From the NCBI GenBank assembly GCA_964036295.1, contig OZ038467.1:9003170-9067169 (forward strand): a stretch of 64,000 bases of DNA, given 5' to 3'. The stretch comes from Plumapathes pennacea (lineage: Eukaryota > Cnidaria > Anthozoa > Antipatharia > Myriopathidae). The notes under the pieces are model-generated. The model had not been told where the DNA came from. It made no database searches and saw only the letters and a program-made list of their open reading frames with translations. A program made the position numbers and the translations under genes. Positions 6,685 to 62,600 of the stretch are shown here, in pieces (position 1 is the stretch's first letter; every line of letters begins with the position of its first letter).

Positions 6685-18811
<12,127 letters not shown>

Positions 18812-19069
18812 CCTCAGAACCGTATCTAAATATCGATCCTTTTTGATGTAATTTGCGTGAAGCAAAATGACTGGAACACCTGGAACTAACTTCAATTTCA
18901 GAACAGCTATTACATTTTTCCCGGTATATAACCTTGGATACATGCTTATCACACGATTCTCCTAATGTTTGACATACTAACTTCAGGATGGAGAGGTTCT
19001 ACACTTCAAACATATACCAGGACAAGATTATGGAATGTCACTTACGTTTGCCTTTTTCATCACCTGACA

Positions 19070-20082: not shown

Positions 20083-20437
20083 GTAAGATAAGCCGAACGG
20101 TTAGAGCAGTGTTCGGAGGAATGTTAAAACCAATCGTATAGTTAATTACTGTGGTTTTGCGTTTGCTATGCTCTTTATTTGGTCCAAATGAGTTTGCCAG
20201 CATCCTCAGCCAATCACGAACAAAAGCAAGACCCGATTGCATATTGCTCATGCATGCCAGGAAGGCGGCTTTTGGTGTTTTCTCTCACCTTGATTAGGTC
20301 CTTGGAAGTAAAACCAAACAAAGATTACGATGGCTTTTCTGATTGGTTGAAAGTATTTTTAAGTTTTACTCTGCTAACTATGGTACAACGTAGTTCAAGT
20401 TCTTATTGTATTCTTTTGCCGCAGGCTTATTGGAAAG

Positions 20438-20587
20438 ATGGATCAGGTCAGGCCAACACCTTTTAAGTACTTGAAAGTATACAGTCTAACACACAAAAGT
20501 TTCCTTCCTCTACAGTTCACCGCATATAAAGCTCTCAACCGCTGTACAGTCACATGCAAGCATTGCATTCTGGGATCTTGTGTGTGT

Positions 20588-20618
<31 letters not shown>

Positions 20619-23600
20619 GGGGGATCGTTGACAGTGAAAATTCCTCTTCGTAAATTCTTACTTATGCCTTTTCTATAGCAGGAGCAAATGAAACTGCTTC
20701 TAAGGAATATGTATGAATACGTACTCAAGAGCGAACGGGTGAGACACAAACGAATTTTGTTCTCTCTTAACTTTACATTAGTATTTACATACAAAAATAT
20801 GTTTAGTATTACTGTATATCGTCTTTTTTCCAAGACAATATTAATCATTAATTTAGTAATTCAAAATTCTTCATCGTTTGTTTGTTTTTACAGATGAAAA
20901 AATTATATCATCAGATGAAAGCGGAAAAAGATAAACTACAGGTGAACTACATGAGATATTTATCTGGGCACAGTTTATGCCAATCCCTTTTTGCGAATAT
21001 ATCGAAAACAGCAAGAACAAGAACAATAAAAATATTACTATTCCCCTTGTCAAAGAAGCACGAAGGCAAACCCATAATATCTCTTACTTTAATTACACAG
21101 CTGTAAAAGGACAGCTAACAATCAGAGGAACCTAACTAACAAACCAAACATCAACATAAACTACGACACTAATGCCTCTTCATTTGCCAGACTTCTTATA
21201 TAAATGCTTTGAAGAAGCTGGATGTAACACAGGAAGGAAACCGAACTATACTAGGGTATGGACTCCCAAATGATATTTCTTTTATTCGTCTACGATTTCA
21301 GGCTAATGACCAAAGCACAGTTAACGTGGTATTTGCAATATAACATACCGACCACAAACCGACAATTCCGACCACACCTCTCGTCATATATATATATATA
21401 CATGTATATAGGCATAGCTATATAACAATGTTATTCCTCTCTCCCTCTATAATATATGAAATATTTCGTTTTAGTGAGGTAAGAAGAAATAGATGAAGAA
21501 ACAAATGAAGTAAAATACAATATATAATCTGCTCATTTCCCGCCTCTTTTTAGGATTTTAGATGGAGCCCTGAATGAGTATAACGAGCGCAAGTATGTGG
21601 ACCAAACTCGCATTCACACAAAGCAGTTAACTTAGTTTGTAAAAAAAGACATTAGTTTTACTCTTCCGTAGCTGTTTGTTTGTGTTTTCATCATAAAAAC
21701 ACAAACAAACAGCTCCGGAAGAGTAAAACTAGTTTGCTTGTTTGTTTCCTTGATTGGTTACTAATCGATGGAAAACAAAAGCGGATGGAAAATATCTTAG
21801 TAAGATCAGATCTTGTTGGGAAAAGAGTATTTACTGAAACTTACTCACTTAATTTAAGATACATAATTGGTATAATGACAGCAAAACCGGTCATTTAATC
21901 CCTGTTAGCTTGACATGCATCAATGTGCCAAATCAAATGAGCTTTCTTGCCAAACATTTATGCAACAACTTCCTGATGATCAACAGTGCCAATGAGCTCA
22001 CCAAATACGAAACAGCAACTCTGGACGAGAACGATGATCTTCTATCTGACCTAAGAGGAGATTTACAGTTGTCCCCTCGCACATTTGACCAATACGTAGC
22101 TTTGGATGGGATGTTCGATTTGCCCACTGGTTCTGCAGCTAATGAAGGAGAAACTTTGCACGGGACAAACGAGGTGTCACCCCCAGCAGATGAAGAAGGA
22201 ACACAGCTGGACCTAGAAAAGTTCGACACTTCAGGTAAACGGGGGCACGATCCACACGAGCCAGATATCTTTGTCGGTAATTCAATCAGCTTATTGTTAA
22301 CGGAGGTCTCGCGGAGCTAAAAATACCGCTTTTGAGTCGTCACGTAGCATACTCTATAACAACCTCTTTATCTTCACAGTATATTCCATTTTTCCAATAA
22401 TAATTTATAAGAAAAAATATGATAAGTTCATGCAACGTAATACTGTTTATAGAATGGTTAAAAATAATACAATTTTCTTGACCTTAGGAAAGTACAACAA
22501 AATAAAAAAAAATTCTCCGACAGAAAGATGAAAAACCAATTTAGTTAGGATGTGTTTGCCTTTCAGAACTTGAGAGTAACTTCACAACAGACCCACCTCT
22601 TCACCGAGATCCTGTTATCCCGTCTTCTCTTAGCAGCAAAAAAGAGACCCTGGATACGTATGATGAATCCCTCGATACGCAAGACAAGTGTGGGTATGTG
22701 GACCAGACTCACATTCAAACTAACTAACCTGATTTATGAGTTTAACTAGACTGCACGAAACGCATTTTAAGACTACAGTGTCAACCTAAATACATTAAAT
22801 AAATATTTCATGATTTCTTCACTGTCAGTCGGACCTCAATGTACATAATCAAATTAACTTTATTGCCAAACATTTAAAATGCAACAATCTCTATGACGAT
22901 TACCAGGGTCAACAATCTCGCCCAGAATGAAACTGCAGCTTTAGAAGGGACATCCGATGATTCCGATGATTCTGCATCTGACTTTACTGCATCTTTGGAT
23001 GAGACAGTTATCAATGTGACCCTAGCTGATGACAAAAACGCACCTTTGGGAGACTATTTTCAGCTAGACCAGGAAATCTTAGACATGTTGAACAAAGCGG
23101 CTTGGTCAGGTTTACACGACGGTAATGTCCCTACCGGTAAGTTATTTTTTTTCTGAAAGGTATAACCGATTCTCCGAGAGAAAAGAGAACTCAATAAAAT
23201 TCATTTAGTCAAAATTGTGCTTGCCTTTCAGAACTTCCCAGTGACTTCACAACAAACCCGTATCTTCACACAAGCCCTTTGGACGTTTTTCCGCCTCAGT
23301 TTGAGAACAAAAATGAATCCCTGGATACGTATGAAGAGTGCGGGTATGTGGACCAGACTCACATTCAAAGTTTAGACCTGCTTAATACAACCAAGTTTAA
23401 CTAGATTGTACAAATTAAAAGGAGTTCAAAAGCATTATGTCAATCTAATTATACTAAAAACCATCCTGGCGAATTCACCGGGTAAATCTAACATCATTGT
23501 ACCTAATTGAATGAACCTTTGCTCAACATTTATGCAACAATCTCCTCACAATCATCAGGGTCAACCAACTCGCCCAGAATGAAAATGCAGCTTTGGAAGG

Positions 23601-26600
23601 GATATCCAATAATTCTGTATCTGACTTGATTCCATCTTTGAATGAGATCAATATGTCTCCAACAAATGACCAAAACGCAGATATGGAAGTTGGAACTCAG
23701 CTTGAACTGGAAAGATTCGACAATACTGGCAAACGGTGGCTCGATTTACACGACGGTAATATCCCCACCGGTAAGTGTTGGCGCTTAAAACGTCAGCAAA
23801 CCTTTGATCTAACGCTGCAAAAAATACTTCTTTTGAGTCGACACGCTAACATAATACAAAAAAAAAAAAAAAGTAGTCATGTGTGTTCTTGTCGTATGAA
23901 TGACTGTCTTTCAAACTGATCAAACGGAATTTAATTCTACGCTACTTTTAGCTTATCAGATAGCTTCAGAAGCGATTAATAGATCACTAACGGCTTATAT
24001 TGTACTAAAACTCACTTTTACCCAGCCCCTCAAGAACCTAATGCCTATAGGCCTCTTTCCTTTACTTTTGTATCTATGTGCTCATTATTCTTTTTGCAAT
24101 TCTGGTTTCCGAAAGGAAGCAAATCTTGCAAAACAAAACAAAAAACAAACAAACAAACAAAAAACAAAAAAATCGTGTAACTACTGTAAATTTTGGATTT
24201 TGATAATTTTATGCATATAATTCTGTTCTTGAGAATTGCAAAAAAAAAAGTGGAACTTTCTCAAACAGCACATTCAGAATGTTTAAAACTATAACCAAAT
24301 CTAGATAAGTTGTCTGTTAGAAAATCAAACTTCAAATCAATTTGGTCGGAATATGTTTGACTTTCAGAACTTCCCAGTGACTTCACAACAGACCTGTGCC
24401 TTCACAGAAGTCCTGTGAACATTTTTCCTTTTGAGAACAAAGATGAATCCCTGGATACGTATAACGAGTGCGGGTATGTGGACCAGACTCACATTTAAAC
24501 CAGTGAATAAAACCTGTTTAACAAATTTAACTAGACTGCACGAAACTATGCAGTCTTTAACTGATTTGTAAACCAAAAAATACCTAAAAAAGTTGGTGAT
24601 TTTCTTCGGGTTAGCCTGACATCATTGTACCCCAGCAAACTAACCTTCATGTCAAGCATTTATTATGCAACGATCTCCAGGGCCAACTATTTCGCTCAGA
24701 ATGAAAATGCAGCTTTGGAAGGGACAATAAATATGTCTCCAGCACATGACCAAAACGCAGATATGGAGGGTGGAACTCAGCTTGAACTGGAAAGATTCGA
24801 CAATACTGGCAAACGGTGGTTCGATTTACACGACGGTAATATCCCCACCGGTAAGTGTTGGCGCTTAAAATGTCATGTTAAAATGTTGAGTCATCACGGT
24901 AACATATTGCAAAAAAAAAAAAAAAAAAAAAAAAAAGGAATATGTTTGCCTTTCAGAACTTCCCACTGACTTCACAACAGACCCGTATCTACACAGAAGC
25001 CCTTTGAACGTTTTTCCGCCTCCTTTTGAGGACAAAGATGAATCTCTGGATACGTATGAAGAGTGCGGGTATGTGGACCACACTCACATTCAAACCAATT
25101 AGACCTGTTTATTTAAACCAATGAACTTAAATAGACTGCACGAAACGTAGTTTAAAACCACTGTGGTCATTTCACCAGGTCAGTCTGATATCATTGTACT
25201 GAACCAAATAAACCCTTCTTGCCAATCATTTATGCAACAATCTTCTCACAATTATTAGGGCCAACCATCCCGCCCAGAATGAAAATACAGCTGTGGAAGG
25301 GACAATCAATATGTCTCCAGCACATGGCCAAAACGCAGCTGTGGAAGTTGGAACTCAGCTAGAACTGGAAATGTTCGACAATACTGGCAAACGATGGTAC
25401 GATCTACACGACGGTAACATCCCCACCGGTAAGTTGCTTAAAAAAATGTTGGTGCCGAAAATGTCAGAAAATCTTTGATCTAACACTGTACAAAATACTT
25501 CTTCTGAGTCGTGACGCTAACATATTATACAACAAAAGTAACATGCGGCTTGTTGCCTTGTAAATAACTGTCTTATGTCTCAAACTTATCAAACGGAATT
25601 AAATTCATTCAGAATGTTTAAAAAAACAACCTACTACTATATTGTCCGTGAGAAAATCGAAATTCAAATGGGTTTAAGTTGGAATGTGTTCGACTTTCAG
25701 AACTTCCCAGTGACTTCACAACAGACCCGTATCTTCACAGAAGTCCTGTGAACGTTTTTCCGCCTCCTTTTGAGAACAAAGAAGAGTTCCTGGATACGTA
25801 TGACAAGTGCGGGTACGTGGACCAGACTCACATTCAAACCAATGACCTGTTTATTTAAACCAATAAATTAAGCTAGACTGCACGAAACGTAATTTAAAAC
25901 CACTGTGTCAATCGAAAAAAAGAAAACAGAAAAAACCTGGTCATTTCACTGAGTCAGCCTGATATCATTGTACTTAACCAAAGGAACCCTTCTTGCCAAG
26001 CATTTCTGCAACAATTTCCTCACACTCATTAGGGTCAACCATCTCGCCCAGAATGAAAATTCAGCTTTGGAAGGGACAATAGATATGTCTTCAGCACATG
26101 GCCAAAACGCAGATGTGGAAGTTGGAACTCAGCTAGAACTGGAAATGTTCGACAATACTGGCAAACGATGGTACGATCTACACGACGGTAATATCCCCAC
26201 CGGTAAGTTGCTTAAAAAAAGTGTTGGTGCTAAAAATGTCAGCGTTTGGTCTAACGCTGTACAAAATACTTCTTTTGAGTCGTGACGCTAACGTATTATA
26301 CAACAAAAGTAACATGCGGCTTGTTTTCTTGTAAATAACTGTCTTATGTCTCAAACTTATCAAACAGAACTAAATTCATTCAGAGTATTAAAAAAATAAC
26401 CTACTACTATATTGTCAGTGAGAAAATCGAAATTCGAATGAGTTTAAGTCGGAATGTGTTTGACTTTCAGAACTTCCAAGTGACTTCACAACAGACCCGT
26501 ATCTTCACAGAAGTCCTGTGAACGTTTTTCCGCCTCCTTTTGAGAACAAAGATGAATCTCTGGATACGTATGGAGAGTGCGGGTATGTGGACCAGACTCA

Positions 26601-29600
26601 CATCCAAACCAGTTAGACCTGTTTATTTAAACCAATAAATTAAGCTAGACTGCACGAAACGTAATTTAAAACCACTGTGTCAATCGAAAAAAAGAAAACA
26701 GAAAAAACCTGGTCATTTCACTGAGTCAGCCTGATATCATTGTACTAAACCAAAGGAACCCTTCTTGCCAAGCATTTCTGCAACAATCTCCTCACAATCA
26801 TCAGGGTCAACCATCTCGCCCAGAATGAAAATGCAGCTTTGGAAGGGACAATAAATATGTCTTCAGCACATGGCCAAAACACAGATGTGGAAGTTGGAAC
26901 TCAGCTAGAACTAGAAAAGTTCGACAATACTGGAAAACGATGGTACGATCTACACGACGGTAATATCCCCACCGGTAAGTTGGTTAAAAAAAGTGTTGGT
27001 GCCGAAAATGTTAGCATAACGTTGGTCTAATGTTTCCAATAATTCTTCTTTTGAGTCGTCACGCTAACATATTCCACAAAAAAAAGTATTCATGTGGGTT
27101 ATTGTCTTGTAAATGACTGTATTGTGTTTTAAGCTTATCTAACGGAATTCAATTGCACCCCAAATTTAGTTGATCAGCTGATTTGTAATCTCAAAAATGA
27201 TTGTATGATCTCTCATGCACTAATGTCTCAGAAGGGAAGTCTTAGAAAATAATCGTCTAACTGTGAACATTGGATTGCGATAATTTCACGGATATAATAC
27301 TGCTCCTCAGAATTGATCAAACTATGCAAGTGGCAGATTTCTCAAAAAGCACAATCATTCGGAATGTTGAAAAAATAACCAGACAATACATTATCCGTGA
27401 GAAAATCGAAATTTAAATTAAAGTAAGCCGGAATGTGTTTGACTTTCAGAACTTCCAAGTGACTTCACAACAGACCCGTATCTTCACAGAAGTCCTGTAA
27501 ACGTTTTTCCGCCTCCTTTTGAGAACAAAGATGAATCCCTGGATACGTATGGAGATTGCGGGTATGTGGACCAGGCTCGCATTAACCAATTTGACCTGTT
27601 TAATCAAACAGAGTTTTTAAACTTGATTGCATAAAATGTACTTTTAAACCGCTGTGTACCAAAATATACTAAAAACTAGCCGTTTTACGTATGAAAAGTG
27701 CGGGTATGTCCACTGGCCTTGCGTTTGAACTACTTACATCAAATTTAGCTAGACTGCACGCAACGCACGTTAAGACCACTGTGTCAACTTAAATATACTA
27801 AAAACAATAGTGATTTCGTACCGAATCACACGAAAGTTTCTTGTCAAACATTTATGCAACAATCTCATCATGATCCTCAGGGCCAACCATCTCCCCAAGA
27901 ACAAAAATGAAGATTTCGAAGGGACATTGGACGACCCCAATGATTCTGTAGAAAAGTTAACTGCATCTTTGGATGGAATAGACATTCATGTGTCTCCAGC
28001 ACATGACCAAAATGCAGATGTGGAAGTTGGAACTCAGCTAGAACTGGAAATGTTCGACAATACTGGAAAACGGTGGTACGATTTACACGACGGTAATATC
28101 CCCACCGGTAAGTTGGGTAAAAAAGTGTTGGTGCTAAAAATGTCAGCATAAAGTTGACCCTTGGCTGCCGAAAAGGCCCCTTTTTGGCTAGATTTAGAAA
28201 GACTTGCGTTTCGGAATTAACAAACGGAATACAATTCACTTCAATGTTATTTTATCAGCTGATTACTGATTTCAGAAAATATTATATGTTCTTTTCTGCA
28301 CTGATGGTTTCATTACGGAAGCAACTCTTGCAAAAGAATATTGTAACTGTGAATATTGGATCGTAATAAATTTATGCATGTAATACTGTTCTTGAGATTT
28401 GCTCAAAATTATGCAATTGGAAGACTTCTCGAACAGCACATTCAAAACCTATGTGACCAAAAAATATATTATCCGAGAGAAAAAGAAACAAACAAATATA
28501 ATTTAATTTAGTCACAATGTGTTTGCTTTCAGAACTTCCCAGTGACTTTACAACAGACCCGTATCTTCACAGAAGTCCTGTGAACGTTTTTCCGCCTCCT
28601 TTTGAGAATAAAGATGAATCCCTGGATACGTATGAAGAGTGCGGGTATGTGGACCAGGCTCCAATTTTAATCAAACCGAGTTTAACTTGACTGCATGAAA
28701 TTAGGTATTTTAAAACCGCTGTGCACCAAAATATACTAAAAATTAGTGGTTCCATCAGGACCAGCCTGACATCATTGCCACCAATATCAAACGAACCTTC
28801 TTGCCATGGAACTAATATGCAACGATCTCCTCTCAACCATTAGAGCAAACGATCTCGCTCAGAATGAAAATGCAGCTTTGGAAGGGACAATCAATATGAC
28901 CCCAAGACATGACCAAAAGGCAGATGTGGAAAATGGACCTCACCTACACCTAGACCCGGAAAAGTTCGATATTACTGGAAAACGGTGGTACGATTTACAC
29001 GACGGTAATATCCCCACCGGTAAGTTGCTTAAAAAGGATTGGCGCTGAAAAATGTCAGAAAATCTTTGATCTAACGCTGCAGAAAATACTTGTTTTAAGT
29101 CGTCACGCTAACATATTGTACAACAAAAGTAACATGTGGGTTCTTGTCTTCTAAATGACTGTCTTCTGTCTCAAAGTTGTCAAACGGAATTAAATTCATT
29201 CAGAATGTTTAAAAAATAACCCAATAATAAAATGCCCGTTAGAAAATCGAAATTAAAACGAGTTTAAGTCGGGAATATGTTTGACTTTCAGAACTTCCAA
29301 GTGACTTCACAACAGACCCGTATCTTCACAGAAGCCCTGTGAACGTTTTTCCGCCTCCTTTTGAGAACAAAGATAAAACCCTGGATACGTATGAAGAGTG
29401 CGGGTATGTGGACACGACTCACATTCAAACTAATCAGACCTGTTTAATACAATCAAGTTTAACTAGACTGTACGAAACATAGTTTAAAACCACAGTTTGT
29501 CAATCTAAATATACCAAAAAATAGTCTGGTCATTTCACCAGGTCAGTCTGATATCTATGTACCGAATCCAGTAAACCATTCTTGCCAAGCATTTATGCAG

Positions 29601-30561
29601 ACATCTCCTCACAATCACCAGGGTCAACTATCCCGCCCAGAATGAAAATACAGCTTTGGAAGGGGCAATCAATATGTCCCCAGCACATCAACAAAAGGCA
29701 GATGTGGAAAATGCAACTCAGCAAGACCCAGAAAAGTTCGATATTACTGGAAAACGGTGGTACGATTTACACGACGGTAATATCCCCACCGGTAAGTTGG
29801 TTAAAAAGTATTAGCGCTGAAAAATGCCAGACATTCTTTGATAACGCTGCAGAAAGTACTTCTTTTGAGTCGTCACGCTAACATATTGTACAACAAAAGT
29901 AACATGTGGGTTCTTGTCTTCTAAATGACTGTCTTGTGTCTCAAAATTATCAAACGGAATTAAATTCATTCAAAATGCTAAAAAAATAAAATAAAATAAA
30001 ATAACCCAATAATATAATGTCCGAGAGAAAATCGAAATTCAAATGAGTTAGTCGGAATATGTTTGACTTTCAGTACTTCCAAGTGACTTCACAACAGACC
30101 CGTATCTTCACAGAAGTCCTGTGAACGTTTTTCCGCCTCAGTTTGAGAACAAAGATGAATCCCTGGATACGTATGAAGAGTGCGGGTAGGTGGACCAGGC
30201 TCGCATTAACCAATTAGACCTGTTTGATCAAACCGAGTTTAACTTGACTGCTTTAAACGTATTTTTAAATCGCTGTGTACCAAAATATACTAAAAATTAG
30301 TAGTTTCAGGGTCAGCCTGACATCATTGTACCAATATCAAACGAACCTTCTTGCCAAGCACTTATGCAACAATCTCCTCTCAGTCATTAGAACAAACCAT
30401 CCCAAGTATAACCAAATAATATATTCTCCGAGAGGAAAATATAACTCAAATTAATTTGGTCGGAATGTGTTTGCCTTTCAGAACTTCCCAGTGACTTCAA
30501 AACAGACCCGTATCTTCACAGAAGTCCTATGAACGTTTTCCCGCCCCCTTTTAAGGAATGA
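20438..30561 (+). CDS. Gene C: short coiled coil plus nine-unit acidic repeat protein, about 1099 aa
   Basis: Head exons: 20425-20446 (ATG at 20438), 20682-20738, 20894-20941, 21191-21255, 21554-21592, 21987-22276. Nine alpha/beta exon pairs follow: 22567-22693/22907-23136, 23232-23343/23559-23770, 24368-24473/24681-24850, 24957-25068/25259-25428, 25701-25812/26033-26202, 26471-26582/26805-26974, 27450-27561/27881-28107, 28533-28644/28844-29019, 29292-29403/29622-29791. The terminal exon is 30482-30561. The sum is 3300 nt, in frame. Residues 1-72 are coiled coil. Alpha exons encode ELPSDFTTDPYLHRSP then FPPPFENKDESLDTYEECG. Beta exons carry LAQNENAALEGTINMSP then FDNTGKRWYDLHDGNIPTG. The model skips the alpha exon at 30074-30185, whose inclusion would break the phase into the last exon. 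The weak point is the start: only MDQ precedes the first intron. Function unknown. Confidence 0.6.
20579..20623 (+). repeat. (TG)n followed by a poly-G run
   Basis: About ten TG dinucleotides and then about 21 G, within an intron of gene C. Run lengths like this are prone to assembly error. Confidence 0.9.
21653..21731. repeat. Near-perfect hairpin in a gene C intron
   Basis: TAGTTTTACTCTTCCG then TAGCTGTTTGTTTGTGTTTT is followed, after a loop of a few bases, by AAAACACAAACAAACAGCT and CGGAAGAGTAAAACTA. The stem is about 36 bp with one or two mismatches. No flanking duplication is obvious. Confidence 0.8.
27684..27720 (+). pseudogene. Truncated alpha-exon remnant
   Basis: TACGTATGAAAAGTGCGGGTATGTCC repeats the 3' end and donor of an alpha exon, without the upstream two thirds or an acceptor. 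It lies between alpha 7 and beta 7 and marks an incomplete unit or recombination scar. Confidence 0.55.
30074..30454 (+). pseudogene. Alpha exon 10 plus truncated beta exon 10 of gene C
   Basis: The alpha exon at 30074-30185 is intact (112 nt) but starts with TACTTCC and has a GTAGGT donor. The beta acceptor at 30390 leads into only a few codons of beta sequence (TNHPKYNQ), which then runs into text normally found in the intron before an alpha exon and stops at 452-454 of the 30-kb block (30452-30454). A deletion has fused beta with the next intron. If spliced in, this gives an alternative short C-terminus; otherwise alpha 10 must be skipped. Confidence 0.6.
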
Positions 30562-31448: not shown

Positions 31449-32093
31449 ATGATGAAACCTTCACAGCGCCGTCGAAGGGTTAGAAAACCTGAACAACACA
31501 TGACTTTCAGTGAGGCTATAAAAGCCATGGCCAGCGATTTTGTTGGAGCTGCTAATGTGGTGGATTCTGATGATTTTTCCGAGGATCCTTCTCCACTTGA
31601 ACAATACTCAGGCGGACAAGAACACAGGTTAGATTAGCCCGGCATCAAACCATGGCGGTTTTCTGATGAATGTTGGAGGCCAAACCAAAGCAAGTACACC
31701 GCCAATCATGCAAAGAAGCTTTTAGAAACACTTCCAACCAATCATAAGCCAAAGGAATTTGCGTTTGGTTTTACTTTGGAGAAGAAACCAATCGGAAACG
31801 CCATCGCCACTTGCTCGCTAAAAGGGGCAGTGTCATGAGATGCGCATGCGGGCGCGTTTGGCCGAATTACGTGAAATAAAGCAACGATCATTTCAGTAAA
31901 TTTCCGCAGTGTTCTCAGCAAAACACACGAATTATCTATTATTTCCGTCTCCTCACAATGCCGCCGGCTCGGGTTCTCTCGTTTGCTTGAAATGCCTGCA
32001 TTGCTTTTACTCACAACCAACCTCTTCAATCTTACCACATTATACCACAGTTGTAGTTCTTCTTGTATACGTTGTACAATGTTTGAGAGCATT

Positions 32094-32144
<51 letters not shown>

Positions 32145-34561
32145 TTTTTGTTTTTGGCAGGCACATGGATAAGATAAAAGAGGTACTGATCAGGCAATCA
32201 CACAACTTGTACAAGTTGCATCTTATTATTATTGTTCCTGTGTGAATCATCCGTTTGCTTTTAATTTCTTGTTCTGCTGCTGTCTTTGTACAAGTTCATC
32301 TTATTATATTACTGTTATTGTGTAAAACTTCTTTGCTTGTAATATTTTTCTTGTTCTGCTACTGTCTTTGTTTTTTCTAGCACCACACCAATTCTCAATG
32401 CCCAACATTCCTGCCCTCTGAGATCCCGTTAAAGGCCATTTCACACTGGACACGTCGCGACACGCTGTAACTGCATGCGACAACCGGGATCTAATTTTGT
32501 CGCGTTGTCACATGCAGTTACAGCGTGTCGCGACGCGTCCAGTGTGAAATGGCCTTTACACTTGAAACCTATTTCGGAAATAAACGCTTTCAAGAATCCG
32601 GATAAATTCGTGTAAACGGGGCCTGAGCTCAAAACTTGAACTGCAATTGGCAAGTCATTTCCATCAGTAAACTTCTTTGAGAAGAAAAGTAAGTTTATTT
32701 GGCGTAAAAGTGCAGTTTACTGTAGACATTTTGCCAAAAGAAACTTGGACTAAACATACGTCGCGCCATTAGCGCCAACACGCTATCGAAACAAAAAGGG
32801 GTTAATTCGGCGCAATAAGGAAACAATAACAGTGTAGCCTGAACGTTCTTTTATGCAATTTATGTAATGACTAACTGTGAGTTTCAAAACGATAAAATAT
32901 TCACAGCGCCGTCGTAGGGCTACGGGACATGGACCAAACCAAAATTTCAACGAGGCTATAAGGGCCATGGCCAACGATTTTGCCGAACAGGAACACAGGT
33001 AAGAATCACCCTAAGACTATATGCAAACGATACTGAACCAACAAAAATACGAGCAGAAGTAAGAAAAAGAACCAGAGTAAAGGATAATTTACACTGAACT
33101 AGGTGTGTCTGGCAAATATCGATAAGTTAGCGACTGCAGACAGAGCGAGAAAAACTGACTAAGAAGGTTGATATTAAGAGGAAACTTAGGCTGTCTCCCG
33201 ACGAGATTTTCAATCCATTTGGCGTACATCTCCTGTGTTACGAGTATGATAAATGTGCCGTTCTTCTAAAAAAAAAAGTTCTCAGAGGATAAATCAAGTC
33301 GAGAGGACCACATCACCATGGTCTGCAGCACAACAAGGCAATGGAAACAAGCAACTGGCAAGCCCAAGAGAGCGGAAACTCGAAAAAGAAGTGGAATCTC
33401 TTCAGCAGTAAGTAAAACAGCTACCGATGTATCAACTTTTTAACGGCATACCACTAAATATAAATTAATCACCCACAGATCTGTGTGAAGACCACAGGTT
33501 CCAAAAGTTATCAAATCTCCCAGCACTCACAGTAGCCACTTTTCTTCGAAGGTGGGAAGAATATCTACATACATGTGTAGGAATACTTCTGTTATCCACC
33601 GGTTGCAGTTGGTGTGGCCCTCGTTTGCTTGAAAAGCTTGGAGTGTATTGTCTCCACTAACAATCTTGGTTATCACATAAACCCACCCTTTATTCTTTCT
33701 TCGATCTTCGACTTTGACGATCACATTACATCAAAGTTGTAGCTCTTCTTGCATGCCGTATACTGTTAGAGTTAAGGCCTGGCAAACGAGGACACATTGT
33801 GGCGGCAACATTGCTAGCGCGCGCATGATTCCCAAATGTTGCCCCGTTTTGCCACGCGCGAAACATTTGTTGCGGACACAAAAAATGTCTCTGAAAAACT
33901 TCAGAAACATTTGTTGTGTCCACGCGGAACGCAACAATGTTGCTGCACGTTTTGCCACCCTGGAAACATCGAAGGACACAATGTTGCCGCCACAATGTGT
34001 CCTCGTTTTGCCAGGCCATTATACTTTGTTTCTTTTGACAGGCGCTTGGACGAGGCAAATAAGGTATTGATCGGGCATACGCTTTGTACTTGTACTCCTT
34101 GTTCTTAGTTTCTTTCCTCCTCCTCGGCTCGGTTGCCTATTTTCAGGCCTCCTATTTTCGTACGCAGAAAGTGGAAAGCAATTGGCCAAGAAAAATGTCA
34201 TTTACCTATTTGCCGTCGACTTGATACTTTGCATATTTCCTGGCAGCTACGCAAGAACAAAGGGCTGCTGAGAGGCATGGTCCCCTTTAAACATTGAATT
34301 GTTATTTTGTTTCACAACAACAGGAGAAAGCAGATCTAATCGAAAGCCTCAGGAACGCCAGAGACTTTTCCAAAAGGGTAGGACACAAATTAATACTCTC
34401 TAATCTTATTCCAGTGTCATTAGTATGAAAATCTATTTTGCAGCATCTACTGATTTTCCAAAAATGACGCTAGTTAACCATTTTGGTATCTGGCTTCTTG
34501 TTGTTGTGTTATACAGGTTCAAAAGGAGTATTTCATCTTAATGAGAAAATACGATATCTAA
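31449..34561 (+). CDS. Gene D1: truncated paralogue, 7 coding exons, about 180 aa
   Basis: Exons: 31449-31627, 32161-32182, 32907-32998, 33279-33407, 34042-34063, 34324-34377, 34517-34561 (543 nt, in frame). Exon 1 encodes a basic RRRRVRKP stretch (possible nuclear signal) then MTFSEAI and an acidic DSDDFSEDPSPLEQY tail. Exon 3 looks like a second, startless copy of exon 1 (RRRR then NFNEAIRAMANDFAEQEH). Exon 4 is a phase 2-2 cassette ending EVESLQ. Then come the 22- and 54-nt coiled-coil exons. A one-base loss relative to D2 in the last exon (CGATATCTAAAG against CGAGTACCTAAAG) makes a TAA at 34559-34561 and removes the downstream coiled coil. It is either a short functional form or a pseudogene. 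Family unknown. Confidence 0.5.
32093..32143 (+). repeat. Poly-T tract upstream of a D1 acceptor
   Basis: About 50 consecutive T before the 22-nt exon. The equivalent tract in D2 at about 38929-38939 has about 11 T. A length change of this size is typical slippage. Confidence 0.9.
32432..32555. mobile_element. Foldback MITE, present in D1 and absent from D2
   Basis: The left arm GGCCATTTCACACTGGAC, followed by a stretch ending CTGTAACTGCATG, is mirrored by the right arm ending GTCCAGTGTGAAATGGCC. TTA flanks both sides. D2 at about 39283 has the uninterrupted site CCCGTTTACACTTGAAA. Target and structure fit a PIF/Harbinger-type MITE. Confidence 0.8.
33776..34017. mobile_element. Foldback MITE shared by D1 and D2
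   Basis: GGCCTGGCAAACGAGGACAC at the left is mirrored by GTGTCCTCGTTTTGCCAGGCC at the right, with TTA outside both ends. The same element is at 40613-40855 in D2 and absent from the matching intron of F near 45385. It therefore inserted after the D/F split and before the 6.8-kb duplication. Confidence 0.8.
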
Positions 34562-35247: not shown

Positions 35248-35600
35248 ACACACACATACACACAAGCGGGACTCTTTCTCCTTCCTTCTGTCTATCTCTC
35301 CTCATCTTCAATCTACAATCTAGCCTTTTGCAATGGTGCAATCGGAAGGGAAGCAACTCGTGCAAGACGAACGTGAAATATTCATTGCTGGATTGAGATG
35401 CTGTTCTTAAAAGATCGTACAAAATTGAACAATTTACTAAACGTTTAAACCGGCACTTTCAGAATGTAGAACATACAACAAACGATATAAATTAAAGATA
35501 AATTATATTATATTAGTCAGGCTGTGTTTGCCTTTCAGGTCGTCCCCAGTCTTTCCTCTCCGAAGAGGTGAATACCCGTATGCAGGTTTGACATGATTTG
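34897..35600 (+). pseudogene. Decayed 3' exons of D1 (65-nt coiled-coil exon and terminal exon)
   Basis: 34897-34945 retains MSEEIRDLQG-like coding text matching the 65-nt exon of F (46449-46513) but has lost its original acceptor and one base in an A run. A CTTTCAG acceptor at 35538 opens a terminal-exon relative. The frameshift upstream means neither is translated in the old frame. Confidence 0.5.
35207..35268 (+). repeat. Poly-C followed by (CA)n tract
   Basis: About 26 C followed by about 12 CA units. It is repeated at 42077-42127 in the second copy, with different run lengths. Confidence 0.9.
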
Positions 35601-36117: not shown

Positions 36118-37373
36118 TACTTCCAAGTGACTTCACAACAGACCCGTATCTTCACAGAAGTCCTGTAAAAGTTTTTCCGCCTCCTTTTGAGAACAAAGAT
36201 GAATCCCTGGATACGTATGAAGAGTGCGGGTATGTGGACCAGGCTCACATTAACCAGTTAGATCTGTTTAATGAAACCGAGTTTAACTCGACTGTATTAA
36301 ACGCATTTTACCGTAATGTACCAAAATATACTAAAAATTAGTTGTTCCATCAGAGTCAGCCTCATATCATTATACGAACCTTCTTGCCAAACTAATATGC
36401 AACAATCTCCTTTCAATCATTAGAGCAAACCATCTCGCCCAAAATGAAAATGCAGCTTTGGAAGGGACAATCAATATGTCCCCAGGACATGACCAAAAGG
36501 CACATGTGGAAAATGGAAGTCAACTAGACCCGGAAAAATTCGATATTACTGGAAAACGGTGGTACGATTTACACGACGGTAATATCCCCACCGGTAAGTT
36601 GCTTAAAAAGTATTAGCGCTGAAAAATGCTAGACATTCTTTGATAACGCTGCAGAAAATACTTCTTTTGAGTCGTCACGCTAACATATTGTACAACAAAA
36701 GTAACATGTGGGTTTTTGTCTTCTAAATGACTGTCTTGTGTTTCAAAATTATCAAACGGAATTAAATTCATTCAAAATGTTAAAAAATAAAATAAAATAA
36801 AATAAAATAACCCAATAATATAATGTCCGAGAGAAAATCGAAATTCAAATGAGTTTAAGTCGGAAATATGTTTGACTTTCAGTACTTCCAAGTGACTTCA
36901 CAACAGACCCGTATCTTCACAGAAGTCCTGTAAACGTTTTTCCGCCTCAGTTTGAGAACAAAGATGAATCCCTGGATAAGTATGACGAGTGCGGGTAGGT
37001 GGACCAGGCTCGCATTAACCAATTAGACCTGTTTGATCAAACCGAGTTTAACTTGACTGCTTTAAACGTATTTTTAAATCGCTGTGTACCAACATATACT
37101 AAAAATTAGTGGTTTCATCAGGGTCAGCCTGGCATCATTGTACCAATATCAAACGAACCTTCTTGGCAAGCACTTATGCAACAATCTCCTCTCAGTCATT
37201 AGAACAAACCATCCCAAGTATAACCAAATAATATATTCTCCGAGAGGAAAATATAACTCAAATTAATTTGGTCGGAATGTGTTTGCCTTTCAGAACTTCC
37301 CAGTGACTTCAAAACAGACCCGTATCTTCACAGAAGTCCTATGAACGTTTTCCCGCCCCCTTTTAAGGAATGA
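36118..37373 (+). pseudogene. Orphan alpha/beta exon block (copy of the gene C 3' end)
   Basis: Exons: alpha 36118-36229, beta 36424-36593, alpha 36883-36994, a truncated beta opening at about 37203, and a terminal alpha at 37294-37373 ending FPPPFKE and stop. These match the last units of gene C one for one. No promoter, start codon or coiled-coil head lies between the D1 poly(A) signal and 36118. The block is either a pseudogene left by the 6.8-kb duplication or is used only by read-through splicing from an upstream gene; the phases would allow the latter. Confidence 0.6.
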
Positions 37374-38285: not shown

Positions 38286-41200
38286 ATGATGAAACCTTCA
38301 CAGCGCCGTCGAAGGGTTAGAAAACCTGGACAACACATGACTTTCAGTGAGGCTATAAGGGCCATGGCAAGCGATTTTGTTGGAGCTGCTAATGTGGTGG
38401 ATTCTGATGATTTTTCCGAGGATCCTTCTCCACTTGAACAATACTCAGGCGGACAAGAACACAGGTTAGATTAGCCCGGCATCAAACCATGGCGGTTTTT
38501 TCTGATGAATGTTGGAGGCCAAACCAAAGCAAGTACACCGCCAATCATGCAAAGAAGCTTTTAAACACTTCCAACCAATCATAAGCCAAAGGAATTTGCG
38601 TTTGGTTTTACTTTGGAGAAGAAACCAATCGGAAACGCCATCGCCACTTGCTCGCTAAAAGGGGCAGCGTCATGAGATGCGCATGCGCGCGCGTTTGGCC
38701 GAACGTGAAATAAAGCAACGATCATTTCAGTAAATTCCCGCAGTGTTCTCAGTAAAACACACGAATTATCTATTATTTCCGTCTCCTCATGATGCCGCCG
38801 GCTCGGGTTCTCTCGTTTGCTTGAAATGCCTGCATTGCTTTTACTCACAACCAACCTCTTCAATCTTACCACATTATATCACAGTTGTAGTTCTTGTATA
38901 CGTTGTACACTGTTTGAGAGCATTGTTTTTTTTTTTTTTGGCAGGCACATGGATAAGATAAAAGAGGTACTGATCAGGCAATCAGACAACTTGTACAAGT
39001 TGCATCTTATTATTATTGTTCCTATGTGAATCTTCTTTGCTTTTAATTTCTTGTTCTGCTGCTGTCTTTGTACAAGTTGCATCTTATTATTATTGTTCCT
39101 GTGTGAATCTTCTTTGCTTTTAATTTCTTGTTCTGCTGCTGTCTTTGTACAAGTTCATCTTATTATTACTGTTATTGTGTGAACTTCTTTGCTTGTAATA
39201 TTTTTCTTGTTCTGCTACTGTCTTTGTTTTTTCTAGCACCACACCGATTCTCAATGCCCAACATTCCTGCCCTCTGAGATCCCGTTTACACTTGAAATCT
39301 ATTTCGGAAATAAACGCTTTGTTCAAGAATCCGGATAAATTCGTGTAAACGGGGCCTGAGCTCAAAACTTGAACTGCAATTGGCAAGTCATTTCCATCAG
39401 TAAACTTCTTTGAGAAGAAAAGTAAGTTTATTTGGCGTAAAAGTGCAGTTTATTGTAGAGATTTTGCCAAAAAAAAAATTGGACTGAACATACGTCGCAC
39501 CATTAGCGCCAACACAACCCGTTAAGACACGCTATCGAAAGAAAAAGGGGTTAATTCGGCGCAATAAGGAAACAATAACAGTAGCCTGAACGTCTTTTTT
39601 ATGCAATTTATGTAATGACTAACCGAGTTTAAAAACGATAAAATATTCACAGCGCCGCCGTAGGGCTACGGGACATGGACCAAACCAAAACTTCAACGAG
39701 GCTATAAGGGCCATGGCCAACGATTTTGCCGAACAGGAACACAGGTAAGAATCACCCTAAGACTATATGCAAACGATACTGAACCAACAAAAATACGAGC
39801 AGAAGTAAGAAAAAGAACCAGAGTAAAGGATAATTTACACTGAACTAGGTGTCTGGCAAATATCGATAAGTTAGCGACTGCAGACAGAGCGAGAAAAACT
39901 GGCTAAGAACGTTGATATTAAGAGGAAACTTAGGCTGTCTCCCGACGAGATTTTCAATCCATTTGGCGTACATCTCCTGTGTTACGAGTATGATAAATGT
40001 GACGTTCTTCTAAAAAAACAGTTCTCAGTGGATAAATCAAGTCGAGAGGACCACATCACCATGGTCTGCAGCACAACAACGCAATGGAAACAAGCAACTG
40101 GCAAGCCCAAGAGAGCGGAAACTCAAAAAAGAAGTGGAATCTCTTCAGCAGTAAGTAAAACAGCTACCGGTGTATCAACTTTTTAACGGCATACCACTAA
40201 ATATAAATTAATCACCCACAGATCTGTGTGAAAAACCACAGGTTCCAAAAGTTATCAAATCTCCCAACACTCACAGTAGCCACTTTTCTTCGAAGGTGGA
40301 AAGAATATCTACATACATGTGTAGTAATGGGAACCAGAATATAAAGGGCCAAACTCAAACGGCCACATCAGAGAGAAAAAGAATGATGTTTTGACTAAAA
40401 CGCAAGTGATTATTAAGGAATACTTCTGTTATCCACCGGTTGCAGTTGGTGTGGCCCTCGTTTGCTTGAAAAGCTTGGAGTGTATTGTTTCCACTAACGA
40501 TCTTGGTTATCACATAAACCCACCCTTTATTCTTTCTTCGATCTTCGACTTTGACGATCACATTACAACAAAGTTGTAGCTCTTCTTGCATGCCGTATAC
40601 TGTTAGAGTTAAGGCCTGGCAAAACGAAGACACAATGTGGCGGCAACATTGCTAGCGCGCGCATGTTTCCCAAATGTTGCCCCGTTTTGCCACGCGCGAA
40701 ACATTTGTTGCGGACACAAAAAATGTTTCTGAAAAACTTCAGAAACATTTGTTGTGCCCACGCGGAACGCAAAGATGTTGCCGCACGTTTTGCCACCCTG
40801 GAAACATCGAAGGACACAATGTTGCCGCCACAATGTGTCCTCGTTTTGCCAGGCCATTATACTTTGTTTCTTTTGACAGGCGCTTGGACGAGGCAAATAA
40901 GGTATTGATCGGGCATACGCTTTGTACTTGTACTCCTTGTTCTTAGTTTCTTTCCTCCTCCTCCTGAGTTGCCTATTTTCAGACCTCCTATTTTCGTACG
41001 CAGAAAGCGGAAAGCAATTGGCCAAGAAAAATGTCATTTACCTATTTGCCGTCGACTTGATACTTTGCATATTTCCTGGCAGCTTCGCAAGAACAAAGGG
41101 TTGCTGAGAGGCACGGTCCCCTTTAAAAATTAAATTGTTATTTTTGTTTCACAACAACAGGAGAAAGCAGATCTAATCGACAGCCTCAGGAACGCCAGAG

Positions 41201-46300: not shown

Positions 46301-48810
46301 ACTTTACCCAAATTTAACATACCCCTACCCCCTCCTCCCCTCCACTCTGTGTCTAACGTTTCCATTACTTTGTTTGCAAATCTGGCAACCAAGAACAAAG
46401 AAACAGGGCAAGCAAAAGAAAAACTAATATAATCTCTTTATCTGTCAGATTTCTGAACAAATGGCATTGAAAAATATGAAGATGACAGAGGAAGAAAACC
46501 GAGATTTACAGGGGTATGGACTCTCAGATGATACTTAAAATTCATCATCATCTTTCATCATCATAACCAACCTGCAATGTACCATAAGAGTCGTTTTCGG
46601 ATGACTGGCACGTACACTGATAGTCTCAGAGACCGACAACCAATCAGAAGCCAAAGTAATCCGCGTTTGGTTTTACTTTAGAGCGGTTTTCGGATGACTG
46701 TCGAAAGTAATCGTGTGATTGCTTTGGTTTTGCGTTTGCTTCGCTTTCGGATTGGTCCACACGAGTTTGTCAGCATGCTCAGCCAATCAGGAACAAAACC
46801 AAAACCAAAACCAAACACTTCTCACGCAAGCGATGGCGTGTACTCGCACTGCTGATTGGAGAGTAAAACCAAACGCAAGACCAAACACAAATTACTTTGG
46901 CTTCCAATTGGCTGAACTGTTTTCTCTCAGTCTCTGTGATTGGCTTGTGTGATTACTTTGGTTTTGGTTTTCGACAGTCATCCGAAAACGGCTCTAAAGA
47001 AACAAGCAATCGGCAGTGCGAGAACACACCATATTTTGCTTCCTTGTGCAAGAAAATTGTAATCTTGCAGGCTTTACTTTTTGCAGGCTAAGAATGCTGC
47101 TAAACTTATAAAACAATCCGAAAGCGTAGTAAACGCAAAACCAAAGCAATCACACGATTACTTACGACAGTCATTCAAAAACGGCTCTATCATTTTCATT
47201 GCCATCACCATCACACAGAACGCAATGGTTTACATTTCCCGCCTCATTTTAGGACTGTAACTGCGGCCCTCGATAAGAATGTGGAGTTGATGCAGCGGTT
47301 ATCAGTAAGCAAATCGCCAGAAAATGTCAGGTGCGTGGTTCAAGTTCACATCGCATTCACACAGAAGTTCTCGTATATAACCAGATGCACGTAACAACTT
47401 TAACCCTATCACTCCCAAGTTCAAAATACAGATTCTCTTGACCTTTATAGAAAAAACAAATATATGAGTGATGCAGTGAAAATTGGTGGATTGATCAGCT
47501 TTTATCTAAGCAATTTATCAAAAGTCAAGTTCTCCGTACTGTATGATATACTTGTGGTGAGAAACTGAAGAACAAAACTGAAGCTGGTCAAGCTTGTAGC
47601 ATTCCGGGCCAAGGGAGAGAAAGGAAAAGCAACTGTAATCTTGTTTATCCGGCCGGACACGCAAGAAGCAAGTGGCAAACCTAGAAGAAAAAAATGACGT
47701 TGATCGGCGCTTTCATTGTGAAAGGGTCACAGCGGTTTTCGGATAACTTTCGTAAAACCAACACAAAAGCAATTAAAGTAAACTACAATGAAACTAAATC
47801 TGTGGTGAGAAAACTGAAAGACAAGATTGAAATTGATCACGAGTGAGCACTTCTTTTGTTGTTATTTCTTTTTTATTTGTAGGACGGAAATCACTCCACA
47901 CACACCCACGGCACCGTGGTAAGATGGATTTAATTATGAAGCACGATGTACTCTTCACGAGTTTACTAATCTTGCTTTCATTTCTTGTTCTCCATACTTC
48001 CTAGTCGACGAACGCTCTCATTTAAATTGCCTGCTGAGACAAGCATGTCACCTGCAGCGTAAGTCGTTTATGTCGCATGTTTAGTGCCTGTTCTGCTAAT
48101 CGTAAAGTTCACGGGGAACCCCTCTCGGGAAAGCGGTCCAACAGCCCTCTCGGCCATTTCACTGTTTTTGTTTACATTGGGAAATCTGGTTCCCAGCATG
48201 AAATCGTAACGAAGCGATGACAAAATAAGCAAATAGGACTTTCGGGTCCCCCCAAAAAACAACCTTCTTCTCAAAGGAGACGGATGGAAGTTACGCAAAT
48301 TTATCTTTCGACTTTCGGGGTCCCAGAAATGCGAGCAGATCAAGGATTTCGGCTTGCAAAGGATCGTGGTTGATAATTACTCTGGTTATTTAATCTCGGC
48401 CAACATGTCATCCCCTTACTGACTGAATCAAAGTATCCTTCTTGACAATGTATTTATGCAACAATCTTACACACTTTAACAGATCCACTGAAGATTCTCC
48501 TGCACGTAACCAAAGCGTAAGTTCGGATAGGTCGGATGCATCATCTGTGTACTATACACCATTGCCGGGTGGACAGTTCGACTTCCCGGATTTTCCTGAT
48601 GTAGACGAGGCATTCGACATTGACGCTACAGATGAGTCATTCCAAAGTGACACCAGAGATGAACAAAATGAGGCGTTGGTTGCAGGGACAAGCTCTGAAG
48701 AAAATACTCTTATGTCCGACTCTGAACCAAGCACTGGTAGGCAATGCCATTTTGTAAGGGTATTTTCTGACTGATTGGTTGATTGATTGATCGATTATTT
48801 TATCAATTGC

Positions 48811-59550: not shown

Positions 59551-59662
59551 GTAAAGAAGCGTGGCAACTTGTTATTGTTTATGCTCAAATGACTGAAACT
59601 AATTCATCCTATTTTTTTAAACTTCTTTCAGGATTAACTTATCGCTTTAGGGGCCTTATAGG

Positions 59663-62600
59663 ATGACGGGGCGGGCCCGAGGACGAAGCAGAGGCCGTGG
59701 AAGGGCCAGCACGCAAGAGGCGGCGAGAAGACCAGGCGAGACGCAAGAAACGATGCCACCTCAGGGCCAAGTTGGAAGAGGAAGGTCTCGTGGACCACCG
59801 CCGCAGGCAGCAAGTGGACCGCCTCCAGCTAGGCCCCAAGAACCGAGGCAGGCGGCAGCAGCAGCACCACCGACAGCGCAAATGGCGAGGATGACTGTTC
59901 AAGAATCACGTGGTGGCCCGCGAAGGGGTCCTTTCCAAGAGCCTGTGACGCGTCCAAACACTCTGACAAACAAATCTGGCACCAGCGGGGGTAAAATCCA
60001 GGTTTTGACCAACCACTTCAAGCTGAAGATGAAGCCCAATTTTGCCATTTACCAGTACAATGTGAGCTTCTCGCCTGAAGTGGAGCTGAAGAAGGCCAGG
60101 GCGGGGATTCTCGGCGCACAACGCGAGCTGTTGGGTGAAGTACGTGCTTTCGATGGCATGGTCCTGTATCTGCCCAAAAAGTTGCCTGATCAGGTCACCA
60201 GGATCCCAACCACCAGAAGGCGTCGTGGAACTGGAGAGCAGCCCATTGAAGAACCGGTGGAGATAACAATTACTTTGACAAATGAGCTGCCTCCTGATAG
60301 TCCCATCACGCTTCAAGTATTCAACGTTATTTTCAGGAAGTATGTATCACATTTCCCAGACGCTTTAATTGATTGTTGTATATGAGAAGACGGCTAAGAG
60401 AAGACTGCATTCTTTTCTATTATGACGTTCATTTCATCATATAACAAACTTTATAAAAAATGTTCTCCTTATTGCATGTATGGATCACATTTAGAGGGTT
60501 TATCTAACAATCACCCACCCCCAAAGATGGATGACTCTTTTGACCTTTTTTTTTTTTTTTTTTTTTTTTTGAGACTGACCCTAGTCAAGATTAAGAGTTA
60601 AGATTTACCCCCAAGGTTCAGAAATCAGTAAATGGCCCTTGCATCATGCTGAAAGTTGAGGAGAATAATGCTCAGAAGCCAACAGTGGACTCAAGATGTT
60701 TGACTACTGCACAATTACATTTTTCCTAATTGATTGCCTGGGGGAATTTCTATTTTGGGCATGGATTGAAAATGACTAATTTGTTGATTTCCACAGGCTT
60801 CTGAAGCACATTGATATGAGGCAAGTTGGAAGGAACTACTACCATGTGAGCAGGGCAGTTGATATTCCTCAACACAAGTAAGTTTTCTGTGAACTCTTTC
60901 ATCCCCTAGTGTTTTAAGCTTTCCTCTCTGTCTTGAAGTCTGCCCAAATGTGTATGACCTCTTTCAACTTGGTATTGAACAAAATTTATTGTGGGAAAAT
61001 CCTTTGTATTTTTAACTTTGGAACAGACATGTTTTTAAAGCCTCCCTTTGCAGCTGCCATGGTTTCTACTTGACCACTAATTTAAAGTTTTCTGTGACTG
61101 TATTGTGGCATTGTGAGATAGTGCAAGAATTTGTTTGTGTGCATTTTGGAAGCACATACCAAAATTAGAAACCTTGAGAAATTTGAGTTTTGTAGCTTAA
61201 AAGTCTGCAAAGTTACAGCTGTTACAGTTTGTAGAGATGTTTTATGGAGAAAGACAGTCCTACCTCACAGGCCTGGCTTTCAATTATTTGCTGCACTTTA
61301 CATACAGATAAGTTTGCTTAAGTTTGGTATACACTGTTGAAATTGCACATATGACCTTTAATGTGGTGTCCAAAATTTTATCTTAAAAGTTACCCTTTAA
61401 GGTGGCTCCATAGGGTTTTCAGACGCAATTTCGCGTGGGCACCAAAATCACAATGAAATAAAAACCCGACTTTCGTAATTCTCTGGAGGAAATCTGAATT
61501 TAACAGGAAATCCTAAAATCTCGGAGTAAAAACAGTTTACGATGCGTGCACGGTTCTTCGAGTCACGAAGAAAGCAAACTTGAAAGCCTTTCAATCAAAC
61601 TAAGTACATGCCGGCTTTACTTGATCGCCGATCTTTATCACTTTACCTTCGAATGTATATAACTCTACTGAATTAGTTTGAAAGTATTGTTTCTGCACAT
61701 CCTGTCAGGCCAATAACTAAACAAGCAACACAACGATGAAGAAGTTCTACAATTCAGATTTTATTCTGTTTGACTTTGAAATGAACAGCCGTCACAAACG
61801 CGGCTCGAACGGTCATCTCGGCAATCATCAGTTGCAATGGACAAACCAGTACATTCAGCCTAGTCACAACACTGGCAGCAATTCTTGGAAGTAAGCAAAC
61901 TTAGACAGAAATTATTGGCGTTGTTATGAAGCTTTGCAAATCCTACTAACCTGCAGAGTTTGATCCCGTGTGTCAGTCTGTGGCATATTATCTCAAGTGA
62001 GCAGTCGCAAAACTAAATATTCACGAACTGTACTGAATAAGTATGAGTGAACTTGATGGGACACAACTGCCAACAAACTTGTTGGGAGCTAGTGGACTAG
62101 CATTCGACGGCTTGAACTGACGACTTTCGAGCTGTCTTCGCGGCTTTGTATTGAAAAGGATTGAGTTGTTGAACAGCTATCACCCTCAAATTGTTCGAGA
62201 CTTCGCTAACAGTAGTTCGCACAGCATAATTCGTGGCTGACATATCCAGTACGAGCTTCTCAAGACAGAAATCCAGGAATTGCATGGTGTTTCCTTTTAG
62301 CTTCGCACCAAGAAAACTTGCTGTACTTGCAGGCGTGCAATCGCCGCTTTCTCCTCGTGTTTACATGCACACATTACGGCTAACGCATGCGCACTTGTCG
62401 ATCTTGTCGAGTCATTATTTTGCATTTGATGGCGCAATACGCACGTAAAATATCAAGATTTTCTTTGCATTTTTCTCGAGTTTCCTTCGGTGAATCTGTC
62501 TTAAATTTTGCAGGCAAACGAAGATTATATCCGGTTTTGTAATATTTGATTTTAATGGAAATTTATGGCGCAGAATTTTTTTTATTTGCAAAAAACCTAA

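Follow-up and report, generated by a model that had tools for sequence, protein, structure and literature searches.

How does a repeat protein start? The stage before two alike copies exist to recombine is seldom visible, and a gene of the antipatharian Plumapathes pennacea may have kept a record of it. We analysed a window of 64,000 nucleotides (nt) of its genome (C6:9003170-9067169) in which one gene, called gene C, carries a long array of two alternating exon types, alpha and beta. Our reading as a whole, which we hold to be probable, is that alpha is a chimera built from other parts of the gene, that the array was then amplified, and that the product joins a coiled coil to an acidic, disordered tail of multivalent docking motifs.

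A pattern search and reading of the sequence placed nine alpha-beta pairs between 22567 and 30561, along with one further alpha and a truncated terminal alpha, and every exon keeps the phase. AG and GT flank all ten alphas and all nine betas, and the splice sites are similar across units. The alphas measure 127, 112, 106 and then seven times 112 nt, so that 8 of 10 are 112 nt long; the betas measure 230, 212, four times 170, 227, 176 and 170 nt (170 nt in 5 of 9). Lengths leave a remainder of 1 on division by three in 10/10 alphas and of 2 in 9/9 betas. This bears out an earlier note on the same DNA, made from its letters alone, which had described nine alternating pairs of mostly 112-nt alphas and mostly 170-nt betas in constant phase; all starts were located, and the end that it gave, 30561, is the TGA of the terminal alpha. 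The exons of gene C, all on the + strand, are as follows.

20425..20446, +, coil exon of 22 nt (profile match, expect value (E) 6e-7; splice borders)
20682..20738, +, coil exon of 57 nt (profile match, splice borders)
20894..20941, +, coil exon of 48 nt (profile match, splice borders)
21191..21255, +, coil exon of 65 nt (profile match, splice borders)
21536..21592, +, exon E39 (21554-21592) with the 18-nt intron tract upstream of it (39/57 identical to alpha, best of 124,080 places)
21987..22276, +, beta0, first beta copy
22567..22693, +, alpha 1 (127 nt)
22907..23136, +, beta 1 (230 nt)
23232..23343, +, alpha 2
23559..23770, +, beta 2 (212 nt)
24368..24473, +, alpha 3 (106 nt)
24681..24850, +, beta 3
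24957..25068, +, alpha 4
25259..25428, +, beta 4
25701..25812, +, alpha 5
26033..26202, +, beta 5
26471..26582, +, alpha 6
26805..26974, +, beta 6
27450..27561, +, alpha 7
27881..28107, +, beta 7 (227 nt)
28533..28644, +, alpha 8
28844..29019, +, beta 8 (176 nt)
29292..29403, +, alpha 9
29622..29791, +, beta 9
30074..30185, +, alpha 10, with no intact beta behind it
30482..30561, +, truncated terminal alpha with the stop TGA

Beta0 has two possible donors in the same phase, at 22234 and 22276; use of the first would shorten the exon by 42 nt and remove the region that matches the WYDLHDG motif.

Twenty-five exons (the five upstream exons, beta0, the nine pairs and the terminal exon, with alpha 10 excluded) were spliced in silico, and gave a single frame that runs from the ATG of the 22-nt exon through 1,099 codons to a stop. 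This ATG (AAGATGG) is the putative start codon. Alpha 10 is probably skipped in the product; no intact beta lies behind it, and its inclusion ends the frame a few codons on. All 512 subsets of the nine pairs stayed open through to the terminal TGA, in agreement with the earlier claim that the 1-1 symmetric pairs can be skipped or lost without a frameshift, and omission of a single array exon kept the frame in 0/18 cases. In none of 2,000 single-base shuffles were all 18 exons open, and the other two frames were open in only 2/9 and 0/9 alphas and in 0/9 and 1/9 betas.

Exons and introns of the array have diverged to different degrees. Among units 3-9 (21 pairs for each element), mean pairwise identity was 0.928 for alpha and 0.878 for beta, versus 0.746 for the alpha-to-beta introns and 0.785 for the beta-to-alpha introns; over all units the corresponding means were 0.885, 0.844, 0.733 and 0.749. 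Insertions and deletions (indels), counted pairwise in units 3-9 and hence not independent events, were multiples of three in 65/65 exonic cases (alpha 27/27, beta 38/38) and in 125/422 intronic ones (56/198 and 69/224). The identity gap (93% and 88% versus 75% and 79%) and the indel phase rule out the earlier statement that introns are as alike as exons. The ratio of nonsynonymous to synonymous divergence (dN/dS) was 0.31 for alpha and 0.57 for beta in units 3-9. Within beta, the corresponding ratio of proportions (pN/pS) over all nine copies was 0.34 in the stretch FD.TGKRWYDLHDGNIPT and 1.00 in the remainder, so that a conserved motif lies next to a drifting linker. The array therefore shows homologous exons head to tail, in one gene model and on one strand, with a phase-symmetric (1-1) unit and with coding constraint in dN/dS and indel phase, as tandem exon duplication would give, and it is very probably coding. 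Searched against 290 Mb of genome in 24 contigs, where match counts are lower bounds, the alpha-beta unit had at least 22 matching places, every one inside the window.

The same data bear on age. Mean dS was 0.185 and 0.208 in units 3-9 and 0.235 and 0.240 in all units, and uncorrected intron divergence (0.21-0.27) lay slightly above this mean synonymous divergence (0.19-0.24). Since mean dS falls barely under intron divergence, most units are not young. Which units are closest nevertheless changes with the part compared: identity is 97% between units 5 and 6 in the first intron and, in the second, 93% between units 4 and 5 and 91% between units 8 and 9, a pattern expected from unequal exchange or conversion on a local scale. 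The suggestion that the array is young or homogenised thus holds for local copying between neighbours and fails for most units.

Origin of the alpha exon

We searched for relatives of alpha in 134 kb, the window extended by 50 kb on its upstream side and 20 kb on its downstream side, after masking the array and its downstream copy. Profiles were complemented by an ungapped scan, covering 124,080 places outside the array, for which the alpha consensus was built from the eight 112-nt alphas. Two exons of the neighbouring genes, named A to F, proved relevant: E39, a 39-nt exon that follows the coil in genes A, B and C and has a counterpart in gene F lacking a GT at the 39-nt point, and T, a short terminal exon of genes A, B, D, E and F. 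With the last 57 nt of alpha as query, the four top places all began 18 nt before E39, in register, in genes C, F, A and B, with scores of 39, 35, 34 and 33 of 57; the next place reached 30. When 300 shuffled 57-mers were scanned, none of the 1,200 top-four slots went to an E39 place, and the top score was 33. The first 39 nt of alpha, taken with 18 nt of intron, had their top place 18 nt before the T of gene A (39/57; next place 32).

Profiles gave the same pairing. The 5' part of alpha with its acceptor ranked the T of gene A (4.7e-6) and the T of gene B (5e-4) first, while those of D (2.3) and E (2.9) were non-significant and stood amid chance rows. With 30 nt of intron, the 3' part matched the E39 of gene C at 1.5e-10 and that of gene A at 0.15, and the E39 of B and F were absent among the matches listed for the 134 kb; the exon-only 3' profile found the E39 of gene C at E = 0.008. 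In the reverse direction, a profile of the E39 exons of B and C recovered 9/10 alphas at E of 4e-4 or less, alpha 1 at 0.36, and the E39 of gene A at 4e-4. The adjoining introns match too: a profile of the alpha-to-beta intron found the intron between E39 and beta0 at 1.5e-14, its gene A counterpart at 1.2e-7 and one in gene F at 3e-5. The end of beta matched tail exons of A (6e-14) and B (3e-8), and its front matched beta0 best (1.7e-4) and gene A next (0.016). That beta is a second fusion, in which the large tail exon of the paralogues gave the front and their beta-like exon the end, was considered and is not claimed, the front match being weak. The places in genes B and F are given below.

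13709..13747, +, gene B E39 exon, paralogue of the 3' part of alpha (profile and ungapped scan)
17591..17872, +, tail exon of gene B, ending in a match to the beta motif (..WNDIHGDETPSG)
18795..18851, +, gene B terminal exon, paralogue of the 5' part of alpha (significant only with the acceptor)
47235..47291, +, counterpart of E39 in gene F, together with its intron tract; the 39-nt point lacks a GT

Alpha is accordingly divisible into 39 nt like T, 16 nt with no source, 18 nt that are intronic in the paralogues, and the 39 nt of E39. The 18-nt tract codes for FPPPF in alpha. By eye, the T of gene A reads GIPSAFSTDLFANSN followed by a stop, and alpha starts with ELPSDFTTDPYLHRS. Alpha is, we think with good confidence, a chimera of a terminal exon front, an intron tract and E39, as judged from sequence comparison.

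A number of results weigh against this interpretation. No source was identified for 16 nt of alpha, and the E39 score of gene B (33) equals the best of the 300 shuffled queries. Taken alone, the 39-nt part scored highest in gene C (25), with A and B (23) tying with one unrelated place and gene F not reaching the top eight. On its own, the 18-nt tract scored 14/18 at five places, namely C, F and three unrelated ones. For the 5' part, the T of genes B, D and F fell outside the ten best ungapped places, and the exon-only profile gave E = 0.0024 for the T of A and 7.3 for the T of B, so the match to T rests mainly on gene A.

The simplest history would be one tandem duplication followed by amplification, and we infer the order of events as follows. 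The ancestor of gene C would have ended in E39, beta and the terminal exon T. A tandem duplication would have joined the front of T, ahead of its stop, to a site some 18 nt before E39, and the welded piece (T front, former intron tract with its acceptor, and E39) would have become one new internal exon, alpha, which has the acceptor of T and the donor of E39. The coding length duplicated is divisible by three, which would have let the E39-beta-T segment multiply, and unequal exchange or conversion acting locally would have led to the present nine pairs. The earlier note had taken the pair as the duplicated unit; on this history the duplication junction lies inside the alpha exon instead. It is still readable because the separate source exons survive in gene C and in the neighbouring paralogues. 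One coding exon, with ten copies in the array, would thus combine a gene's last exon with a small inner exon and the 18 nt of intron before it, and the stop-bearing end of a gene could become a repeat unit. Fusions of this type can be searched for elsewhere: in a repeated exon, one half should resemble the gene's last exon and the other an internal exon plus the intron before it.

The predicted product and alternative readings

The modelled gene C protein has an isoelectric point of 4.24, and its tail of 1,039 residues contains 60 lysines and arginines versus 209 aspartates and glutamates. FoldIndex was negative in 11/11 pieces of the tail. For one beta exon, AlphaFold2 gave a predicted local distance difference test (pLDDT) of 52.9 and a predicted template modelling (pTM) score of 0.19; this run was limited to that exon and a thin alignment of ten close sequences. 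Short stretches are conserved, LPSDFTTDPYLHRSP..FPPPF..LDTY..C in alpha, with one Cys per alpha, and FD.TGKRWYDLHDGNIPT in beta. In Pfam-A the unit, the tails and the coils all stayed under the curated cut-offs (best for the unit, 17.9 bits versus 26.1). Against the PDB the unit gave one row, at E = 0.15, and the coil of gene A gave none at 0.01. The earlier note had not recognised the unit and had said that a match to a described domain would count against its reading; no convincing one was found in Pfam-A or the PDB.

The coil itself is most evident in gene A, where the 3.5-residue periodicity had a power of 121.8 versus 10.0 and 0/2,000 shuffles were as high. The coils scored best with SOGA (30.5, cut-off 31.1) and Uds1 (24.8, cut-off 28.8), taken for gene B from the best 25 of 32 families; sub-threshold scores of this kind are frequent for coiled coils. 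Counting against the proposed product, heptad periodicity in gene C was weak (best period 4.02, p = 0.043) and gene B had none (power 7.2, p = 0.49), and FoldIndex discriminates poorly here because the coil was negative too (-0.10). The product would be a short coiled coil followed by an acidic disordered tail of about 1,040 residues, in which conserved motifs alternate with drifting linkers. That the tail is acidic, disordered and multivalent is likely. A docking function of its motifs is a tentative proposal, suggested by conserved motifs beside drifting linkers, and the tail would then act as a multivalent docking scaffold held together by the coil.

The tail could instead supply length, charge or stickiness in a structural or material protein. 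Such a role would suit the low-complexity, acidic composition and repetition of the tail, its one Cys per alpha and the adjoining coil. Selection, however, is focused on the short motifs while the linkers drift (0.34 versus 1.00), which resembles motif function more than bulk composition, and we regard a purely structural role as possible though doubtful. Variable splicing, in which the pairs form a menu whose number or choice differs by transcript, draws on the in-frame behaviour of 512/512 pair subsets and on the likeness of the splice sites of the units. Such freedom of frame is nevertheless expected of any symmetric unit, and the units are kept alike by purifying selection where a menu of alternatives would diverge; we consider this reading unlikely. 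The earlier note had suggested that the protein may vary in length by splicing or between individuals, and the frame would permit both.

The history of alpha could also have run in reverse, with alpha ancestral and the E39 and T of the paralogues split from it, since sequence likeness by itself has no direction. Genes A and B, with counterparts in F, have separate E39 and T exons at the expected ends of the tail, however, and gene C retains its own E39 ahead of the array; splitting would need several events where the chimera needs one, which makes the reverse order very improbable. A dead or non-coding array that merely resembles exons is suggested by the broken last unit (alpha 10 without a beta) and by an orphan copy downstream, but dN/dS below 1, exon indels that keep the frame and splice borders intact in all units leave it scarcely credible. 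Chance likeness of pyrimidine-rich text to alpha, although the 18-nt tract alone is matched equally well by unrelated places and the gene B score equals the best shuffle, is just as hard to sustain given that the E39 exons of four genes, in register, take the top four of 124,080 places and that the neighbouring introns are matched as well.

Gene C offers a case in which the tuning of motif number in a disordered tail can be tested. The wider proposal, that one welding duplication creates both an in-frame exon and a propagating symmetric unit, and that in gene C the array is kept as a tail whose length and motif number vary between transcripts or individuals, is speculative and rather improbable on the sequence available.

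The surrounding gene cluster

With profiles built on exons from genes B, C and D, the 134 kb yielded many further small exons of the same four kinds, ordered 22-54-48-65 nt. Coil exons span about -37.6 kb to 46.5 kb in window coordinates; all coil-exon matches with E below 0.5 lie on the + strand, some without clean borders. One cassette comprises 189 nt, or 63 codons and nine heptads, and five complete ones occur in gene A, which lies upstream of the window. Gene C is a member of a tandem cluster of coiled-coil-type genes. The 22-nt microexons in repeated four-exon cassettes, at 8744-13289 and in the wider cluster, form a second level of tandem exon amplification. In the genome-wide searches, whose counts are lower bounds, a coil exon searched as DNA had all of its listed rows (6/6) at this locus. 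The beta-like tail exon of gene A had 10/11 rows at this locus and one on contig C2 (E = 0.19), and that of gene B had 4/5 here and one on contig C5 (E = 0.62).

A tandem duplication of about 6.8 kb, with copies at about 29.2-35.9 and 36.0-42.8 kb that are 93-97% identical in the four longest pieces, yields genes D and E (first exons at 31500 and 38337, terminal exons at 35539 and 42402). No beta exon was found inside genes D and E. The duplication includes the end of the array.

36118..37370, +, copy of the array 3' end (alphas at 36118 and 36883, beta from 36424, terminal alpha to 37370)

This copy sits behind the terminal exon of gene D and is probably orphaned. Misassembly was considered, and the units and the copies of about 6.8 kb differ throughout, which speaks against simple duplication by the assembler.

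Several other features were seen in the window. The large tail exon of gene B (14269-15194) holds four to five tandem repeats of 26 residues (..DYEDNPTHAMNVTYDNSSSLDANQN..) at 14627-15017 with a 78-nt period; these are Tyr-x-Asn-rich and constitute a second, intra-exon repeat tail in the same family. CATAAG and CTTATG hexamer arrays lie in inverted order at 17378-17548, just before the beta-like exon of gene B. In genes D and E, open reading frames overlapping on both strands (33681-34070 and 40555-40908) have peptides such as KTRTHCGGNI in common, the pattern expected of an inverted-repeat element. The stretch ..GGTTTTCGGATGACTGTCGAAA.. and its reverse occur at 15290-15600 and 46680-47000, as an interspersed element would. 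A Piwi-type Argonaute gene begins at 59651-60385 with a large first exon whose N terminus is rich in Arg and Gly (Pfam Piwi_N, 3e-13; PDB match to Piwi-like protein 1, 2.4e-27), which is consistent with an animal. A search for the GFP family gave no match, and gave none in 14 control genomes either, so it is uninformative.

Comparison with known systems

Disordered scaffolds with repeated short linear motifs are a known general class, and gene C resembles them in that conserved stretches repeat between drifting linkers beside a coil; it differs in a unit that matched nothing in Pfam or the PDB. Dscam-type exon arrays also consist of tandem exon copies in one gene with the frame kept. Their copies are typically divergent and used singly, whereas the units of gene C are alike and probably all add to one tail; here no single exon could be skipped without a frameshift (0/18), only whole pairs.

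Among the papers listed by our searches of open-licence literature there was no report of this gene family, or of the fusion of a last exon with an inner splice region as the origin of a repeat. Exon arrays made by unequal crossing over, and border-crossing duplications that reuse splice signals, are already known. An example of the latter is intron gain through tandem duplication in a potato RdRp gene (PMC4974935). There, as in the history proposed for gene C, a duplication across an exon-intron border reuses splice signals and rewrites gene structure. The direction differs: in potato, exonic sequence became a new intron, whereas in gene C an intron tract with its acceptor would have become coding and two exons would have been fused.

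The nearest system that we found is the leucine-rich repeat (LRR) genes of Tetrahymena, which carry long arrays of equal 90-bp exons with phase-2 introns, attributed to exon shuffling through unequal crossing over, in thousands of genes and with a suspected retrotransposon helper (PMC6564038). Long exon arrays with one intron phase are common to both. The Tetrahymena arrays repeat a single exon that encodes a known domain (PMC6564038), whereas gene C repeats a two-exon unit with no known domain at one locus, and its duplication junction would lie inside an exon.

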